A DNA stretch of 12,638 nt from Elusimicrobia bacterium HGW-Elusimicrobia-2 (GTDB taxonomy: Bacteria; CG03), in the NCBI GenBank assembly GCA_002841685.1, contig PHAM01000053.1, positions 1-12,638 on the forward strand, in the 5' to 3' direction. A program made the position numbers and the translations under genes. Below the pieces are notes generated by a model. That model saw only the letters and a program-made list of their open reading frames with translations, was not told the DNA's origin and ran no database searches. This document shows, piece after piece, positions 2,179 to 12,378 of this stretch; the first letter of the stretch is position 1; the number at the start of each line of letters is the position of its first letter.

Positions 2179-3158
2179 ACACCCTCCGCTGCGGGAGGCT
2201 CGCGCGCTTGCTGGAACAAAACAGCCTTGAATCGGCCGTCACCCGCGACCCTTCGGACATATTTTATTTTACAGGGATGCGGGCGGAAGGAGCCTACCTC
2301 GTCTTTAACAGGGGCGGGGCCAGGCTCTTTCTGAACAGCCTTTACCCCTGCAAAAAAAAATGGACCGCGCCTGTCGCGGAACTGAAAAATATAAAATTGG
2401 GGAAAACCGGCATTGAGCCGTCCAAAATATCCGTATCGTCTCTTTCGGCCTTAAAGAAAATGACCGGCTGTACTGTCATTGAAAAAGAGCCTCTTTTTGC
2501 GAAGATACGCGCATTAAAAGAGCCCGGAGAAATAAAGAATATAGACGCGGCCCAAAAAATAAGCAAGCGCCTCTGCTCCGGAGTGCGCCTGACGGAGGGA
2601 ATGAGCGAGAGAGACGCCGCCTCTTATATATCTGCGCGCTCGCACTCTCTATCCGGCGGCCCGGCGTTTGAGCCTATTGTCGCTTTCGGCGCGAACGGCG
2701 CATATCCCCACCATATCCCTTCCGGAAAAAAATACTCACGACACGCTCTGGCGCTCATAGACATGGGTGTCATATATAAGGATTATCGCGCTGACTTGAC
2801 GAGAATGAAGGGATTATTTAACATAAAAACTCTTTTAGGCAGGGCTTACGCGGCGGTGAAAAAGGCAAGAGAGACGGCCTTGCAGCATATTGTGCCGGGC
2901 GCGGAGATAGGCGGGATAGGCAGGATGATAAAAAAATATCTCGCCGATCAGGGTTTTGAAAAAAACATACTCCATTCCGCCGGCCACGGCATAGGGCTTG
3001 ATGTCCATGAGTGGCCCGCCATAAATTGCAGTGAAAGAGAAAAATTTGAGAAAGGAATGGTTTTCACTCTTGAGCCGGGCCTTTATTTCAGCGGCATCGG
3101 CGGAGTGCGGGTGGAAGATGTTTATGTCCTGGAGGACAAAGCGAGGGTTTTAGGATGA
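2175..3158 (+). CDS. Xaa-Pro aminopeptidase/dipeptidase, M24 family
   Basis: This is a cytoplasmic M24 'pita-bread' metallopeptidase of the kind that removes N-terminal residues before proline. The 327-residue product has a creatinase-like N domain (residues 1 to about 120) and a catalytic domain. All five metal ligands can be seen: Asp196 (ALIDMGV), Asp207 (RADLTR), His271 (SAGHGIGLDVHE), Glu300 (TLEPGLY) and Glu314 (RVEDVYV). The NGAYPHH motif around 174-180 supplies the usual active-site histidine. It is somewhat shorter than typical PepP/PepQ-like members (about 355), mostly in the N domain. Its position between aroQ and efp is a common bacterial arrangement. Both ends use ATGA overlaps (2175-2178 and 3155-3158), suggesting translational coupling. 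The exact choice between pepP and pepQ is not decided by the sequence. Confidence 0.93.
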   Translation: MNTLRCGRLARLLEQNSLESAVTRDPSDIFYFTGMRAEGAYLVFNRGGARLFLNSLYPCKKKWTAPVAELKNIKLGKTGIEPSKISVSSLSALKKMTGCTVIEKEPLFAKIRALKEPGEIKNIDAAQKISKRLCSGVRLTEGMSERDAASYISARSHSLSGGPAFEPIVAFGANGAYPHHIPSGKKYSRHALALIDMGVIYKDYRADLTRMKGLFNIKTLLGRAYAAVKKARETALQHIVPGAEIGGIGRMIKKYLADQGFEKNILHSAGHGIGLDVHEWPAINCSEREKFEKGMVFTLEPGLYFSGIGGVRVEDVYVLEDKARVLG

Positions 3159-3709
3159 TAAGTACTTCTGACTTTTCAAACGGCGTCTATATAAAGGTGG
3201 GCGACAAGCTCTACCGCATAATATGGTTTCAGCATCATAAGCCGGGCAAAGGCCCCGCGATAATGAGAGTAAAGATGAAAGACGTTTTCGGCGGCGCGAC
3301 CATTGAAAGAACTTTCCGGGGCGGAGAAAAATTCGAATCCCCGGAAGTGACTCGCACCTCCGTCAACTATTCATATGAAGCGGGAGACAGCCTCGTTTTC
3401 ATGGATGCCGACTACGAGCAGCAAGAAATAAAGAAAGGCACCATCGGACTGAGCGAAAAATTCCTCGTGGAAGGCATGAAAGTGGTTATTGTCATGACAG
3501 AGGGGAAAATCATAGACGTTGAACTCCCGCCTTCCGTTGAAATGAAGGTGGAATACACGGAGCCCGGCGCCAAGGGCGACACTGTTTCAAACGTGCAAAA
3601 ACCGGCCAGGCTTAAAAACGGCCTTGAGGTGAAGGTGCCGCTCTTTATAAACGAAGGCGACAGGATAAAAATTGACACCCGCACCGGTAAATATCTGGAA
3701 AGGACATAG
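3155..3709 (+). CDS. efp: Translation elongation factor P
   Basis: EF-P binds between the ribosomal P and E sites and relieves stalling at consecutive prolines. The 184-residue product shows the three-domain EF-P pattern: an N-terminal KOW-like domain with IKVGDKLYRII, the loop HHKPGKGPA with the tip Lys32, a middle OB domain (SYEAGDSLVFMDADYEQ), and a C-terminal OB domain ending GDRIKIDTRTGKYLER, which is diagnostic. The lysine tip implies modification by an EpmA-type, 5-aminopentanol-type or other lysine system rather than arginine rhamnosylation. No modifying enzyme is encoded in the window. Start and stop fit normal family length. The accB-like gene follows after 9 bases, so efp is probably co-transcribed with it. 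Confidence 0.97.
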   Translation: MISTSDFSNGVYIKVGDKLYRIIWFQHHKPGKGPAIMRVKMKDVFGGATIERTFRGGEKFESPEVTRTSVNYSYEAGDSLVFMDADYEQQEIKKGTIGLSEKFLVEGMKVVIVMTEGKIIDVELPPSVEMKVEYTEPGAKGDTVSNVQKPARLKNGLEVKVPLFINEGDRIKIDTRTGKYLERT

Positions 3710-3718
3710 CAGGCGTCA

Positions 3719-4207
3719 ATGAGAAAAAAATCAGCAGCGGGTCAAACAGGCCCGGAGGAAGAATTAAATTTAAAAAAAATAATGGAAGTCCTGGGCGAAA
3801 CCGATGTCTGCGAATTTGAATACAGCAAGGGTGATATGCACATAGTGCTCAAGAAAGAGCCCGTGGCTGTTATACTGGGAGAAGAGGAAAACACATCGGC
3901 CACGGAAAATGCGGGAGAAACAGCCCCGCGGGCCGGCACCGAAAACACTCTGCCTCCTCAGCTCCGCGCTAAAATCCTTAAATCACCCGCTGTGGGCACT
4001 TTCCACATAAGCGAGGGGGATATGCTGCTGGCAGCTGTCGGCAAGAAAGTGAAAAAAGGCCGGAAGCTGGGCTGGGTGAATTCCATGGGCATCATGCAGG
4101 AAATAATGGCCGACGCAGACCTGAAGATAGCCGCGATTTTCTGCAAAGACAGGGAAGTCGTTGAGTGGGGACAGAAGCTCTTTGAAGTAGAGGACGAAAA
4201 TGTTTAA
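3719..4207 (+). CDS. BCCP (AccB)-like protein lacking the biotinyl lysine
   Basis: The 162-residue product has the AccB plan. An N-terminal segment (LNLKKIMEVL...CEFEYSKGDMHIVLKK, residues 16-46) corresponds to the AccB N-domain. A polar linker (about 50-85) follows, then a biotinyl/lipoyl barrel domain (88-158) that starts SPAVGTFHIS, retains the VGKKVKKGRKLGWV turn and ends WGQKLFEVE. The biotin-accepting site should read EAMKM, but here it reads NSMGI (121-125): Gly124, codon GGC at 4088-4090, replaces lysine. Changing an AAA or AAG codon to GGC needs at least two substitutions, the flanking Glu and Ala are also replaced, and the frame is open on both sides, so a base-call error or frameshift does not explain it. 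Established BCCPs carry carboxybiotin on that lysine, so this protein cannot do so in the normal way. It overlaps accC by 8 bases. A scaffold or regulatory role in acetyl-CoA carboxylase, as for plant BADC proteins, is inference. Confidence 0.88.
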   Translation: MRKKSAAGQTGPEEELNLKKIMEVLGETDVCEFEYSKGDMHIVLKKEPVAVILGEEENTSATENAGETAPRAGTENTLPPQLRAKILKSPAVGTFHISEGDMLLAAVGKKVKKGRKLGWVNSMGIMQEIMADADLKIAAIFCKDREVVEWGQKLFEVEDENV

Positions 4208-5528
4208 GAAAGTACTCGTCGCCAACAGGGGCGAGATCGCCCTGCGGATCATAAGGGCGCTGAGAGAAATGTCTGTTAAATCCGTCGCCGTGTGCTCGGA
4301 AGCGGACAAGAATAATTTTTACTGCGGCCTCGCGGATGATTGCATCTGCATAGGCCCCGCGGCGGCGGCTTCAAGTTATCTGAATGTTTCGCAGATAATA
4401 AGCGCGGCCCTTGTCAAAAAATGCGACGCTGTCCATCCGGGATACGGATTTCTCGCCGAAAATCCTCATTTCGCCGAGATATGCGCCTCTTACGGCATGA
4501 GCTTCATAGGCCCCTCGGCGGAAACGATCGCGCTGGCCGGGCAGAAAGCAGAGATCATAGACCTTGTTAAACGGAAAAAAATACCCGTTGTGCCGGGCTC
4601 AAAAGGCATAGTCGCCAACGCCGCGGAAGCGAAAAAGATCGCCGCGGCCATCAAATACCCAGTTATAATAAAAGCCACCGCCGGCGGCGGCGGAAAAGGC
4701 ATGAGGATAGTCCGCGGCGAAAAAGATATAGAGCAGGCCTTTGAACTCGCCGGAGCCGAAGCGAAAAACGCTTTTTCAAACGCAGGGCTGTATGTTGAGA
4801 AATACATCGAGGCCCCGCGCCATATAGAGATACAGATCGCCGCCGACAAAAAAGGCAGAGTGCTCTACTTCCCCGAGAGGGACTGTTCCATACAGAGAAA
4901 CCACCAGAAAGTCCTTGAAGAGGGCCCCTCGCCGCAGATAAACGCGAAACTGAGAAAAAAACTCGGTGAGACGGCCTGCCGCGTGGCAAAACTGATCAAT
5001 TACACCACCGTGGGTACTGTTGAATTCCTTGTTTCAAAAAACGATTTTTATTTCATGGAGATGAACGCCAGAATACAGGTTGAACATCCCGTGACCGAAC
5101 TTGTATCCGACATTGACCTGGTGAAAATGCAGATAGCTCTCGCCGCGGGCCAAGACCTGCCCCTTGGCCAGGATGACGTAAAAGAGATATGCCATGCCGT
5201 GGAGTGCAGGATCAATTCCGAAGACGAAAATTATATGCCGTCTGCGGGAAAAATCGAAAAGCTCATCCTGCCGGGCGGCCCGGGGGTACGGGTGGACACG
5301 GCGATGACCAACGGTTCGGAAATATCGCCGTTCTATGATTCCATGATAGCCAAAATCATCACTTACGGCCGCGACAGGGCGGAATCCATAGAGAGAATGA
5401 AGCGCGCGCTGCTGGAACTCAAAATAGAAGGCGTGACGACAAATATAGCGCTTCATCAGAAAATACTCCAGGACGAAAATTTTATAAAAGGCTGTTACAC
5501 CACGGATTTCATAGGGAACATGAAATGA
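4200..5528 (+). CDS. accC: Biotin carboxylase subunit AccC
   Basis: AccC uses ATP and bicarbonate to carboxylate biotin on BCCP, the first half-reaction of acetyl-CoA carboxylase. The 442-residue product is full length and aligns throughout with the family: VANRGEIALRI at the N terminus, HPGYGFLAEN at 79-88, the glycine-rich ATP lid TAGGGGKGMR (160-169), ERDCSIQRNHQK with Lys237, and EMNARIQVEHPVTE with Glu287, Asn289 and Arg291. The C-terminal region has the usual HAVECRINSED, SAGKI and YYDSMI-like (FYDSMIAK) motifs and ends without a fused biotinyl domain. The enzyme therefore looks catalytically complete, in contrast to the degenerate carrier gene it overlaps (ATGTTTAA, 4200-4207). Its stop overlaps gmhA by ATGA. 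A PycA or propionyl-type carboxylase subunit is a less likely alternative. Confidence 0.95.
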   Translation: MFKKVLVANRGEIALRIIRALREMSVKSVAVCSEADKNNFYCGLADDCICIGPAAAASSYLNVSQIISAALVKKCDAVHPGYGFLAENPHFAEICASYGMSFIGPSAETIALAGQKAEIIDLVKRKKIPVVPGSKGIVANAAEAKKIAAAIKYPVIIKATAGGGGKGMRIVRGEKDIEQAFELAGAEAKNAFSNAGLYVEKYIEAPRHIEIQIAADKKGRVLYFPERDCSIQRNHQKVLEEGPSPQINAKLRKKLGETACRVAKLINYTTVGTVEFLVSKNDFYFMEMNARIQVEHPVTELVSDIDLVKMQIALAAGQDLPLGQDDVKEICHAVECRINSEDENYMPSAGKIEKLILPGGPGVRVDTAMTNGSEISPFYDSMIAKIITYGRDRAESIERMKRALLELKIEGVTTNIALHQKILQDENFIKGCYTTDFIGNMK

Positions 5529-9421: not shown

Positions 9422-11344
9422 ATGATTAATTTTAAAAATATAAAACTGGAAAAAAACACGCTGCGCGCGCTTCTTATAGGCATGGTAATTACTCTCTTAT
9501 TTTCATTTTTTTCTTTTTTCGGAGCTTTCAAAATTTTTGAATATAAAACCCAGGATTTCCGTTTTTACCTGAGGGGCGAGAGGGAAGCTTCGGGAAAGGT
9601 TAAAATCCTGGAGATGGGTGACGAGAGCGTCAGCGACAAAGCCATGGGAAGATGGCCATGGCGGAGACGCTACCACGCCATTCTTCTCAATATTATTTCA
9701 AAGTACAATCCGTCTATGGTGATGTACGATGTTCTTTTCACGGAGAAGGACAATTATCCCGAGGACGATCAGATTCTGGCCGGACAGCTTCAAAAACTGA
9801 AAACATATTTTCCTATGTTCTGTATCATAGACAAGGGTGCAACGGAAGAAATAAACGACCCTTTCCAGAAAATGCTGCTTAACAAAATTGCTATTCCCGG
9901 TAAAGCTGACAAAAGTTTTTATAACGCGATTGAACTTGTGCTTCCCATAACGCGTTTTTCAGGGGCTTTGGCGGGAAGCGGCTATGCCAACGCCATCCCG
10001 GACAGGGACGGCACAACACGGCGCGTCGCGCTGCTCGTCAGTCACGGCGGTAAAATTTATCCGCACATAGCTTTTATCATGGCTATGAATTATCTCGACG
10101 TTGATAAGTCAGACATAGAAATTCGGCCGGGCAAATTCATAAATATAAAAAAAAGTAAATACGGGGCTTTCAAAATACCGGTTGACAGCAGAAATCAGAT
10201 GCTTTTAAATTATCCGGGCGGCATAGAGCGTTACAATCCAATGAGTTTTCTTGAGGTTATAGACACGTTCAGGTCAGACCCGGAAGCTCAGAAACTTAAA
10301 GATATGGAGGGAAAAGCTCTTTTCGTCGGGCTCACAGCCACCGGCACAGTCGATTTACGCCCCACCCCATTTTCTCCGCTTTTTCCTATGGTCGGGGTTG
10401 TGGCCGCGACCTTCGCCAATATTGTTGACAAGTCTTTCATGAGAGCGTCTTCTTCCTGGGCGGATTTTCTTATGGTGTTTTTTATCGGCATGCTGATTAC
10501 GGCGCTTTCTCCGCGTTTTTCACCGCTTAAAGGCGCTGTTTTTTCGGCCCTTGTTATGGCGGCATGGTGCCTGTTCTCATATGCGCTGTTTGTCCGGCTT
10601 GTAATTGTGCCCGTATTTTATCCTCTGAGCGCGGGGCTATTTTCTTATTTAGCCATAACAATTTTCAGATTTGCCACTGAGGAAAAAGAGAAAAAGTTTA
10701 TAAAAAGCACTTTTCAGCGCTATGTGTCTTCGCAGGTCGTGGAGGAGCTGATCAAAAATCCGGAGATGCTTAATATGAAAGGGAAAAAAGAACGGCTCAC
10801 CGTGTTTTTTTCCGACATCAGGGGTTTCACATCAATGAGCGAAAAACTGGAACCTGAGGAAGTGGTGAAAATTCTTAATGAGTATCTTACGGAAATGACG
10901 AAAATTATTTTTAAACACCAGGGCACCCTGGATAAATTTATAGGCGACGCGATTATGGCTATCTGGGGCGCGCCCAAATATTTTGACAATCACGCGGAAC
11001 TCGCCGTACGCGCCGCGGCGGAAATGCAGGAAAAAGTCAAAGAACTCTGCGCCAACTGGGAACGTGAAGGCCGCAGAAAAATCGGCATAGGCATGGGGAT
11101 AAATACCGGTTTTGTCGTCGTGGGGAATATGGGTTCGGAAAGTTATTCAGATTATACGGTCATAGGCGACAACGTCAATCTTGCGGCGCGCCTTGAGGAG
11201 AACGCTCCGGCCGGAAAAATTCTTATATCAGAGGCAACTTACACGGAAGTAAAAGATATAGTGGAAGTGCAATTACTGGAACCGATGTCCGTAAAAGGCA
11301 AGGAAAAGCCGGTAAAGGTTTATGAAGTGCTCAAAATTTGTTAA
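9422..11344 (+). CDS. CHASE2-domain class III adenylate cyclase, membrane-bound
   Basis: This enzyme makes a cyclic nucleotide, probably cAMP, in response to an external signal. The 640-residue product has a membrane segment (about 14-36), then a periplasmic CHASE2 sensor (about 40-340) with the typical MGRWPWRRRYHAILL and MVMYDVLFTEKD motifs. Three more membrane segments follow (about 346-363, 371-391, 394-416), then a transducer helix with FQRYVSSQVVEELI, and a cyclase domain. Cyclase residues are Asp465 (FFSDIRGFT) and Asp509 (KFIGDAIMAIWG) for metals, Lys505 and Thr579 (DYTVIGDNVN) for purine selection, and Asn586 and Arg590 for catalysis. Lys plus Thr fits ATP-specific class IIIb enzymes. 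No clear Shine-Dalgarno precedes the ATG at 9422. A CRP-type gene follows after 8 bases, which supports cAMP signalling as a unit. The sensed signal is unknown. Confidence 0.95.
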   Translation: MINFKNIKLEKNTLRALLIGMVITLLFSFFSFFGAFKIFEYKTQDFRFYLRGEREASGKVKILEMGDESVSDKAMGRWPWRRRYHAILLNIISKYNPSMVMYDVLFTEKDNYPEDDQILAGQLQKLKTYFPMFCIIDKGATEEINDPFQKMLLNKIAIPGKADKSFYNAIELVLPITRFSGALAGSGYANAIPDRDGTTRRVALLVSHGGKIYPHIAFIMAMNYLDVDKSDIEIRPGKFINIKKSKYGAFKIPVDSRNQMLLNYPGGIERYNPMSFLEVIDTFRSDPEAQKLKDMEGKALFVGLTATGTVDLRPTPFSPLFPMVGVVAATFANIVDKSFMRASSSWADFLMVFFIGMLITALSPRFSPLKGAVFSALVMAAWCLFSYALFVRLVIVPVFYPLSAGLFSYLAITIFRFATEEKEKKFIKSTFQRYVSSQVVEELIKNPEMLNMKGKKERLTVFFSDIRGFTSMSEKLEPEEVVKILNEYLTEMTKIIFKHQGTLDKFIGDAIMAIWGAPKYFDNHAELAVRAAAEMQEKVKELCANWEREGRRKIGIGMGINTGFVVVGNMGSESYSDYTVIGDNVNLAARLEENAPAGKILISEATYTEVKDIVEVQLLEPMSVKGKEKPVKVYEVLKIC

Positions 11345-11352
11345 GATGCGGC

Positions 11353-12033
11353 ATGGTTGAAAAAGATATACTGAAAAAGATTCCGGGTTTTTCCGCTCTC
11401 GCCGCGGGGCATCTTGCACGGCTGGGGAAGATAAGCGAAGTCAGAAGTTTCAAAAAAGACGACATTATTGTTTCGGAAAAATCCCCGGGCAAAATGCTTT
11501 TTTTTGTAATTTCCGGCAGAATAAAAATTTATAAAAGCGCCGCTGCGGGGCATATAAAAGTACTGTCCTATCTTGATAAAGGCGACATCTTCGGGGAAAT
11601 GATTATTTTCGGCGGCGGGGTGCGCTCGGCTTCGGCGCAGGCAATGACAAGCTGCAGAATTCTTATTATACGGGCAAAGGACTTTAAAGCATTCGCTTTG
11701 CGTAATATTCATATTCTGCTTAAAATAATAAGCACATTGATTATCAGACTGAAAAAAGCCGATGATGATATCAAATCCCTGGCCTATAACACAGTCATTT
11801 CAAGAACAGCCTTTACGCTGCTTAAGTTCGCCGGGCAGTATGGAATTAAAAAGGGCGGCAAGATTTATATCAATTTCCCCCTTACTCATGTCGAAATTGC
11901 CAACAATGTCGGTTCCTCAAGAGAGGTTATATCAAGAGTGCTTTCCAAACTGGAGACACTGAAATACGTGGAATGCCTACGGGGAAAAATAGCTATACTG
12001 AATCCCTCGGGGCTGAAAAAAGTTATATACTGA
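11353..12033 (+). CDS. CRP/FNR family transcription regulator
   Basis: The product (226 residues from ATG 11353) is a cyclic-nucleotide-binding regulator. The N-terminal beta-roll carries the phosphate-binding cassette GEMIIFGGGVRSASA with Gly81, Glu82, Arg91 and Ser92. A long dimer helix (about 112-145) leads to a winged helix-turn-helix at 178-199, LTHVEIANNVGSSREVISRVL. Arg190, Glu191 and Arg195 match E. coli CRP Arg180, Glu181 and Arg185, which read TGTGA. The adenine-contact Thr127-Ser128 of CRP aligns with Ala136-Asp137, so ligand preference is less certain. There is no FNR-type cysteine cluster. I preferred ATG 11353 to the in-frame TTG at 11338, which overlaps the cyclase stop; neither has a good Shine-Dalgarno. 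The gene is 8 bases after the cyclase, its likely source of ligand. Confidence 0.93.
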   Translation: MVEKDILKKIPGFSALAAGHLARLGKISEVRSFKKDDIIVSEKSPGKMLFFVISGRIKIYKSAAAGHIKVLSYLDKGDIFGEMIIFGGGVRSASAQAMTSCRILIIRAKDFKAFALRNIHILLKIISTLIIRLKKADDDIKSLAYNTVISRTAFTLLKFAGQYGIKKGGKIYINFPLTHVEIANNVGSSREVISRVLSKLETLKYVECLRGKIAILNPSGLKKVIY

Positions 12034-12048
12034 CTTTCTTATTTTTTT

Positions 12049-12378
12049 ATGAAAAAAATAGAAGTTATATTTCCTCCCGATCGGCTCAATCGTGTCAAAA
12101 ATATTCTTTATCCGCTTACTATCGGGGGCATGATTGTTTCGCATGTTCGGGGAATCGGCATGCAGAGAGACGAGCTGAAACAAAAAGAAAAACGCTTTTA
12201 TGAATTCGCGAAGATAAAACTTGAGCTGATTGTCAAAGACAGTGAGCTGCAGAAAGCAGTGGACCTCATTATAGAAACAACGCAGACTGGCCACGTGGAT
12301 GACGGCAAAATATTTATTTCGGATATCAGAGACAGCGTGAGAATCCGCATGGGGGAATACGGGGAGGACGCCGTTTAA
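12049..12378 (+). CDS. PII-type signal transduction protein with shortened T-loop
   Basis: The 109-residue product follows the PII (GlnB/GlnK) fold: MKKIEVIFPPDRLNRVKNIL, GGMIVSHVRGIG, the B-loop TGHVDDGKIFIS and the C-loop RIRMGE. ATP-contact residues are kept: Gly37, Gln39, Lys87, Arg98 and Arg100, the last three offset by exactly three from E. coli Lys90, Arg101 and Arg103. The three missing residues fall in the T-loop, which reads QRDELKQKEKRFYEF and lacks the usual YRGAEY uridylylation motif. A tyrosine happens to sit at residue 51, but in a different context. It is shorter by a few residues than GlnB (112). No glnA, amtB or glnD gene lies nearby. It is 15 bases after the CRP gene and has no clear Shine-Dalgarno. 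Target and modification are unknown. Confidence 0.87.
   Translation: MKKIEVIFPPDRLNRVKNILYPLTIGGMIVSHVRGIGMQRDELKQKEKRFYEFAKIKLELIVKDSELQKAVDLIIETTQTGHVDDGKIFISDIRDSVRIRMGEYGEDAV

Follow-up and report, generated by a model that had tools for sequence, protein, structure and literature searches.

The window, i.e., the whole 12,638-nucleotide stretch of DNA that was analysed, contains the gene order aroQ-pepQ-efp-accB'-accC-gmhA, which is kept across the phylum. The gene designated here as accB' (positions 3719-4207, forward strand) was identified from its open reading frame, its matches to BCCP profiles and a PDB match, and encodes a 162-residue paralogue of AccB that lacks the biotin-accepting lysine. 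It lies between efp (3155-3709, forward strand), its conserved upstream neighbour by synteny, and the biotin carboxylase gene accC (4200-5528, forward strand), the start of which overlaps the accB' stop. The window belongs to a family of seven genomes from an Elusimicrobia-type lineage that consists mostly of MAGs, and the named relatives are Elusimicrobia MAGs. The overlap between the accB' stop and the accC ATG is 8 nt in five of the seven genomes, including the window, and 1 nt in a sixth; in the seventh (G005) the two genes are separated by about 200 nt. The G005 spacer holds inverted repeats (L039, 4030-4245), unlike its relatives. The same gene string also carries a PII (GlnB-type) gene (window 12049-12378), which is syntenic in four genomes checked (G000, G002, G003 and G006), and, at 9422-12033, a CHASE2-cyclase gene with a Crp/Fnr regulator immediately after it, both of which are conserved along with the string.

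AccB' has the N-domain, linker and biotinyl barrel of AccB. Residues 17-158 were matched by TIGR00531 (BCCP; 5e-18) with 65.9 bits, which is under the equivalog cut-off of 115.2 bits, as are the scores of nearly all canonical copies of the lineage, and the match to PF00364 exceeded its cut-off. Functional carriers have a lysine within E-A/S-M-K-M/L/I/V; the translation of accB' reads N-S-M-G-I where the canonical motif is E-A-M-K-M, and in the alignment with the closest PDB chain, E. coli BCCP (4hr7), 'EAMKMM' lies opposite 'NSMGIM'. The preliminary description had placed a GGC codon (Gly124) at 4088-4090 on the forward strand, in the position of the biotin-accepting lysine, and this was confirmed by codon reading and by the family and 4hr7 alignments. 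GGC differs from AAG and AAA at all three bases and so is not the result of a single-base error; an error of sequencing or assembly was ruled out by these three changes together with the presence of glycine in all seven genomes. A shifted acceptor lysine was also rejected, as the hairpin has none in the window's family and the lysine found at +2 in some Fusobacteriota is not conserved. Judged by its sequence, AccB' is a well-preserved copy of BCCP that is predicted to be unable to carry biotin. It shares domain order, fold and the efp-accB-accC gene order with canonical AccB/BCCP (TIGR00531; E. coli 4hr7 and 1bdo), from which it differs in the acceptor motif, in its score against the equivalog model and, in the window's family, in a thumb that is two residues shorter.

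The AF2 model of AccB' has a helix and a hairpin, together with a barrel of high confidence. The biotinyl-type beta-barrel (residues 84-159; 3968-4195, forward strand) was predicted with a pLDDT of about 95, and its best Foldseek match was the E. coli biotinyl domain (1bdo); the top four matches include this domain, E. coli BCCP in its BC complex and Arabidopsis BCCP1. The putative AccC-assembly module (residues 17-50; 3767-3868, forward strand), delimited from dN/dS and the AF2 model, is predicted to form a helix (18-27) and a beta-hairpin (32-37/40-45), although confidence in the N-domain is only moderate (pLDDT 71-79).

The preliminary description had raised the conservation of Gly124 in the lineage as a point to be checked, and had named frameshifted or decayed relatives as grounds for abandoning a retained function. 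Glycine occupies the acceptor site in each of the seven family genomes, where the pattern is N/D-S/C-M/L-G-I, and the gene is open in all of them, without stops or frameshifts; the six relatives are 42-90% identical to the window protein. Pairwise comparisons within the genus gave whole-gene dN/dS values of 0.11-0.35 for accB', similar to those of functional canonical accB. By part, the values were lowest in the N-domain (0.00-0.04), intermediate in the barrel (0.03-0.26) and highest in the linker (0.27-0.73), making the N-terminal module the most constrained stretch of the gene. At the barrel tip (residues 117-131) mean identity in the family is 0.68, compared with 0.58 for the entire barrel, and G124, I125, Q127 and I129 are invariant. 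The accC-linked copy in other families of this small phylum has ESMK in three genomes and asparagine in two, and intermediate states of that copy in sister families (ESMK, or Lys replaced by Asn) were seen at L047, L049, L045, L051 and L016.

Three proteins of the biotinyl/lipoyl type are encoded in the window's own genome: AccB', an AccB with the motif EAMKV beside pnp, and a GcvH-like protein that looks like the GcvH of a glycine cleavage cluster. The EAMKV copy (C83) is the second, intact accB for which the preliminary description had suggested a search, and its presence means that a Lys-less BCCP homologue and a true BCCP occur in one genome. A canonical EAMK AccB adjoins pnp in all seven family genomes, and pnp-linked canonical copies are also found in most genomes of the phylum's other families. 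The accC of the window encodes the only biotin carboxylase of the genome, and each sister genome likewise has a single AccC; in G003 alone an additional AccC-like protein is encoded. As there is one AccC, the carrier AccB and the non-carrier AccB' must share it. Its catalytic partners are intact: accA, accD and a 203-residue biotin ligase were all found, and an alignment of AccC with the E. coli enzyme, read by eye, showed that the catalytic residues of the latter, Lys116, Lys159, His209, Lys238, Glu288, Asn290, Arg292, Glu296 and Arg338, are kept. The possibility that AccB' is the carrier of another carboxylase was rejected, given a genome with one AccC, no carboxyltransferases besides accA and accD, and no biotinyl-type proteins besides AccB' other than the EAMKV AccB and the GcvH-like protein.

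To see where else such proteins occur, a Lys-less profile was run against 389 genomes, and three further phyla were searched; the phylum of the window and some ordinary genomes were also included. Among 124 accC-linked AccBs with a readable site, the residue was glycine in 74, lysine in 38, asparagine in five, histidine in three, arginine in three and glutamine in one; these counts are not prevalences, because the phyla were picked for having hits. Lys-less accC-linked AccBs occur in three phyla besides the window's, one being Fusobacteriota (an assignment that rests on the 16S of one member) and another, at a guess, Armatimonadota. In Fusobacteriota, 44 of the 44 best accC-linked copies have glycine and all 26 of the other copies read have lysine, some of which may belong to decarboxylases; one member (G428, L219) has a second accB-accC pair with an EAMK accB besides its glycine copy. 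The second copies have lysine in 10 of 10 cases in each of the other two phyla, and second copies retain E[AS]MK. Histidine, glutamine or arginine was seen at the site of accC-linked AccBs from other phyla at L157, L158, L160, L161, L193, L197, L207 and L211. The order of frequency, mostly glycine and then asparagine, histidine and arginine, would be expected if the tight turn at which the lysine sits is retained after the lysine has become dispensable. The bias towards glycine and asparagine at that turn may reflect selection that preserves the fold but not the role of carrier, although sampling also inflates the glycine counts.

AccC trees require a minimum of 8-11 changes in lysine state, and a single clade of Lys-less rows was rejected (AU p = 2e-57 overall). 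Within the window's phylum alone there are three changes of state, and a single clade was again rejected (p = 1.4e-4). One ancient Lys-less family is ruled out by these tests; the lysine has been lost several times independently in bacteria. The Lys-less AccBs matched no separate NCBIfam model, and a search for close relatives of accB' among viral contigs and plasmids returned none that were informative. A 2011 study of carboxylase evolution omitted BCCP for lack of signal.

The closest known parallel is plant BADC (Arabidopsis BADC1-3), which is also a BCCP paralogue with an N-terminal part and a biotinyl-type barrel, lacks the lysine, and is found beside true BCCPs and one biotin carboxylase. 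AccB' is bacterial, however, its gene adjoins or overlaps accC, and in the bacterial sequences compared the lysine loss was repeated and independent, which makes common descent with BADC unlikely. The suggestion in the preliminary description of a bacterial BADC counterpart in an accC operon therefore holds as an analogy, i.e., a Lys-less BCCP coupled to accC with a true BCCP elsewhere; AccB' would work like BADC, probably by convergence. Actinobacterial acyl-CoA carboxylases have an epsilon 'glue' subunit that is not known to be a BCCP relative. It is likewise non-catalytic and helps such biotin carboxylase complexes to assemble (cited in PMC11926652). BADC was called unique to plants by a 2025 paper, in which its role is described as disputed between inhibitor and 'glue' (PMC11926652), and no report of a bacterial Lys-less BCCP of this kind was found in the open-access literature, where matches were judged mostly by title or abstract.

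The simplest reading of these observations is that AccB' would be a non-carrier subunit of the AccC-AccB complex. AccB' would be co-translated with AccC and occupy BCCP places within the AccC-BCCP complex, where its N-terminal helix and beta-hairpin would help to hold the complex together and its barrel would fold but bear no biotin. The biotinylated AccB from the pnp-adjacent gene would use the same AccC and do the carrying, so that AccB' would determine AccC oligomerisation and the number of live carriers per complex. Chloroflexus BC1 has a barrel, built from four BCCP hairpins of this type, that links two BC dimers, and its deletion lowers BC activity (PMC11077971). We infer physical incorporation of AccB', and a role in assembly and stoichiometry rather than pure inhibition; the assembly role is preferred because accB' is tied to accC and its N-domain is so constrained. 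Against the subunit reading stand the spacer in G005, a report that the E. coli BC-BCCP complex is held by core domains and not by the hairpin (PMC11077971), and the moderate confidence of the N-domain model. On balance, incorporation through the helix-hairpin, with AccB' setting assembly and carrier number, seems about as apt to be right as wrong.

The main alternative is that AccB' inhibits the enzyme by competing with biotinylated AccB for AccC, a larger share of AccB' giving less acetyl-CoA carboxylase activity. The two proteins have the same domain plan and one AccC between them, their ratio could vary because the genes sit at separate loci, and inhibition was the first role proposed for BADC (a precedent cited in PMC11926652). 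However, in most of the family the translation of AccB' is coupled to that of AccC itself, so that it is made whenever AccC is, and separate regulation of accB' is not visible; inhibition is thus possible but rather unlikely, and the constant coupling and N-terminal constraint fit an assembly or stoichiometry subunit at least as well. A docking role for the tip around Gly124, with a regulator such as the PII of the same gene string as the partner, appears improbable. The tip is conserved above the barrel average with four invariant residues, the PII gene is syntenic, and a link is conceivable because PII proteins bind BCCP elsewhere (in Synechocystis; PMC5080355), yet the PII gene is 6.5 kb away amid unrelated genes and the tips of canonical copies are conserved still more (0.87).

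It is very doubtful that AccB' is a decoy for biotin ligase or a sensor of biotin status. It resembles a ligase substrate that is unable to accept biotin, but the ligase, at 203 residues, seems to leave no room for a DNA-binding repressor domain, and it is the N-domain that is most constrained, not the barrel surface that a ligase would read. The protein-level dN/dS of accB' exceeds that of accC and efp, as might be seen in a relic decaying slowly and kept only through polarity on accC translation. This is scarcely credible: dN/dS of the N-domain and barrel is far below 1 and that of the whole gene is like that of functional accB, none of the seven genomes has a stop or frameshift, the same Lys-less state extends throughout a whole phylum, and intact conserved homologues occur across phyla. 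The earlier characterisation of accB' as a retained non-carrier BCCP, not a decaying gene, is strongly supported by its conservation, dN/dS, synteny and overlap with accC, by the canonical second copy and by recurrence in other phyla.

Drugs and engineering both target acetyl-CoA carboxylase, which commits carbon to fatty acids. In several phyla this may be a two-BCCP enzyme, with a required, accC-coupled, non-biotinylated structural and regulatory subunit and an unlinked biotinylated carrier; the case for such a general and overlooked design, in which the non-carrier half arose repeatedly and in convergence with plant BADC, is evenly poised. The repeated loss of the lysine provides natural replicates for the question posed in plants of whether a Lys-less BCCP inhibits or assembles the enzyme, and automatic annotation is likely to misname Lys-less AccBs as biotin carriers. 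If the two-BCCP design is real, it concerns the first committed step in making fatty acids, and the subunits listed in textbooks would lack one member, a non-carrier BCCP firmly tied to accC, in entire phyla such as Fusobacteriota.
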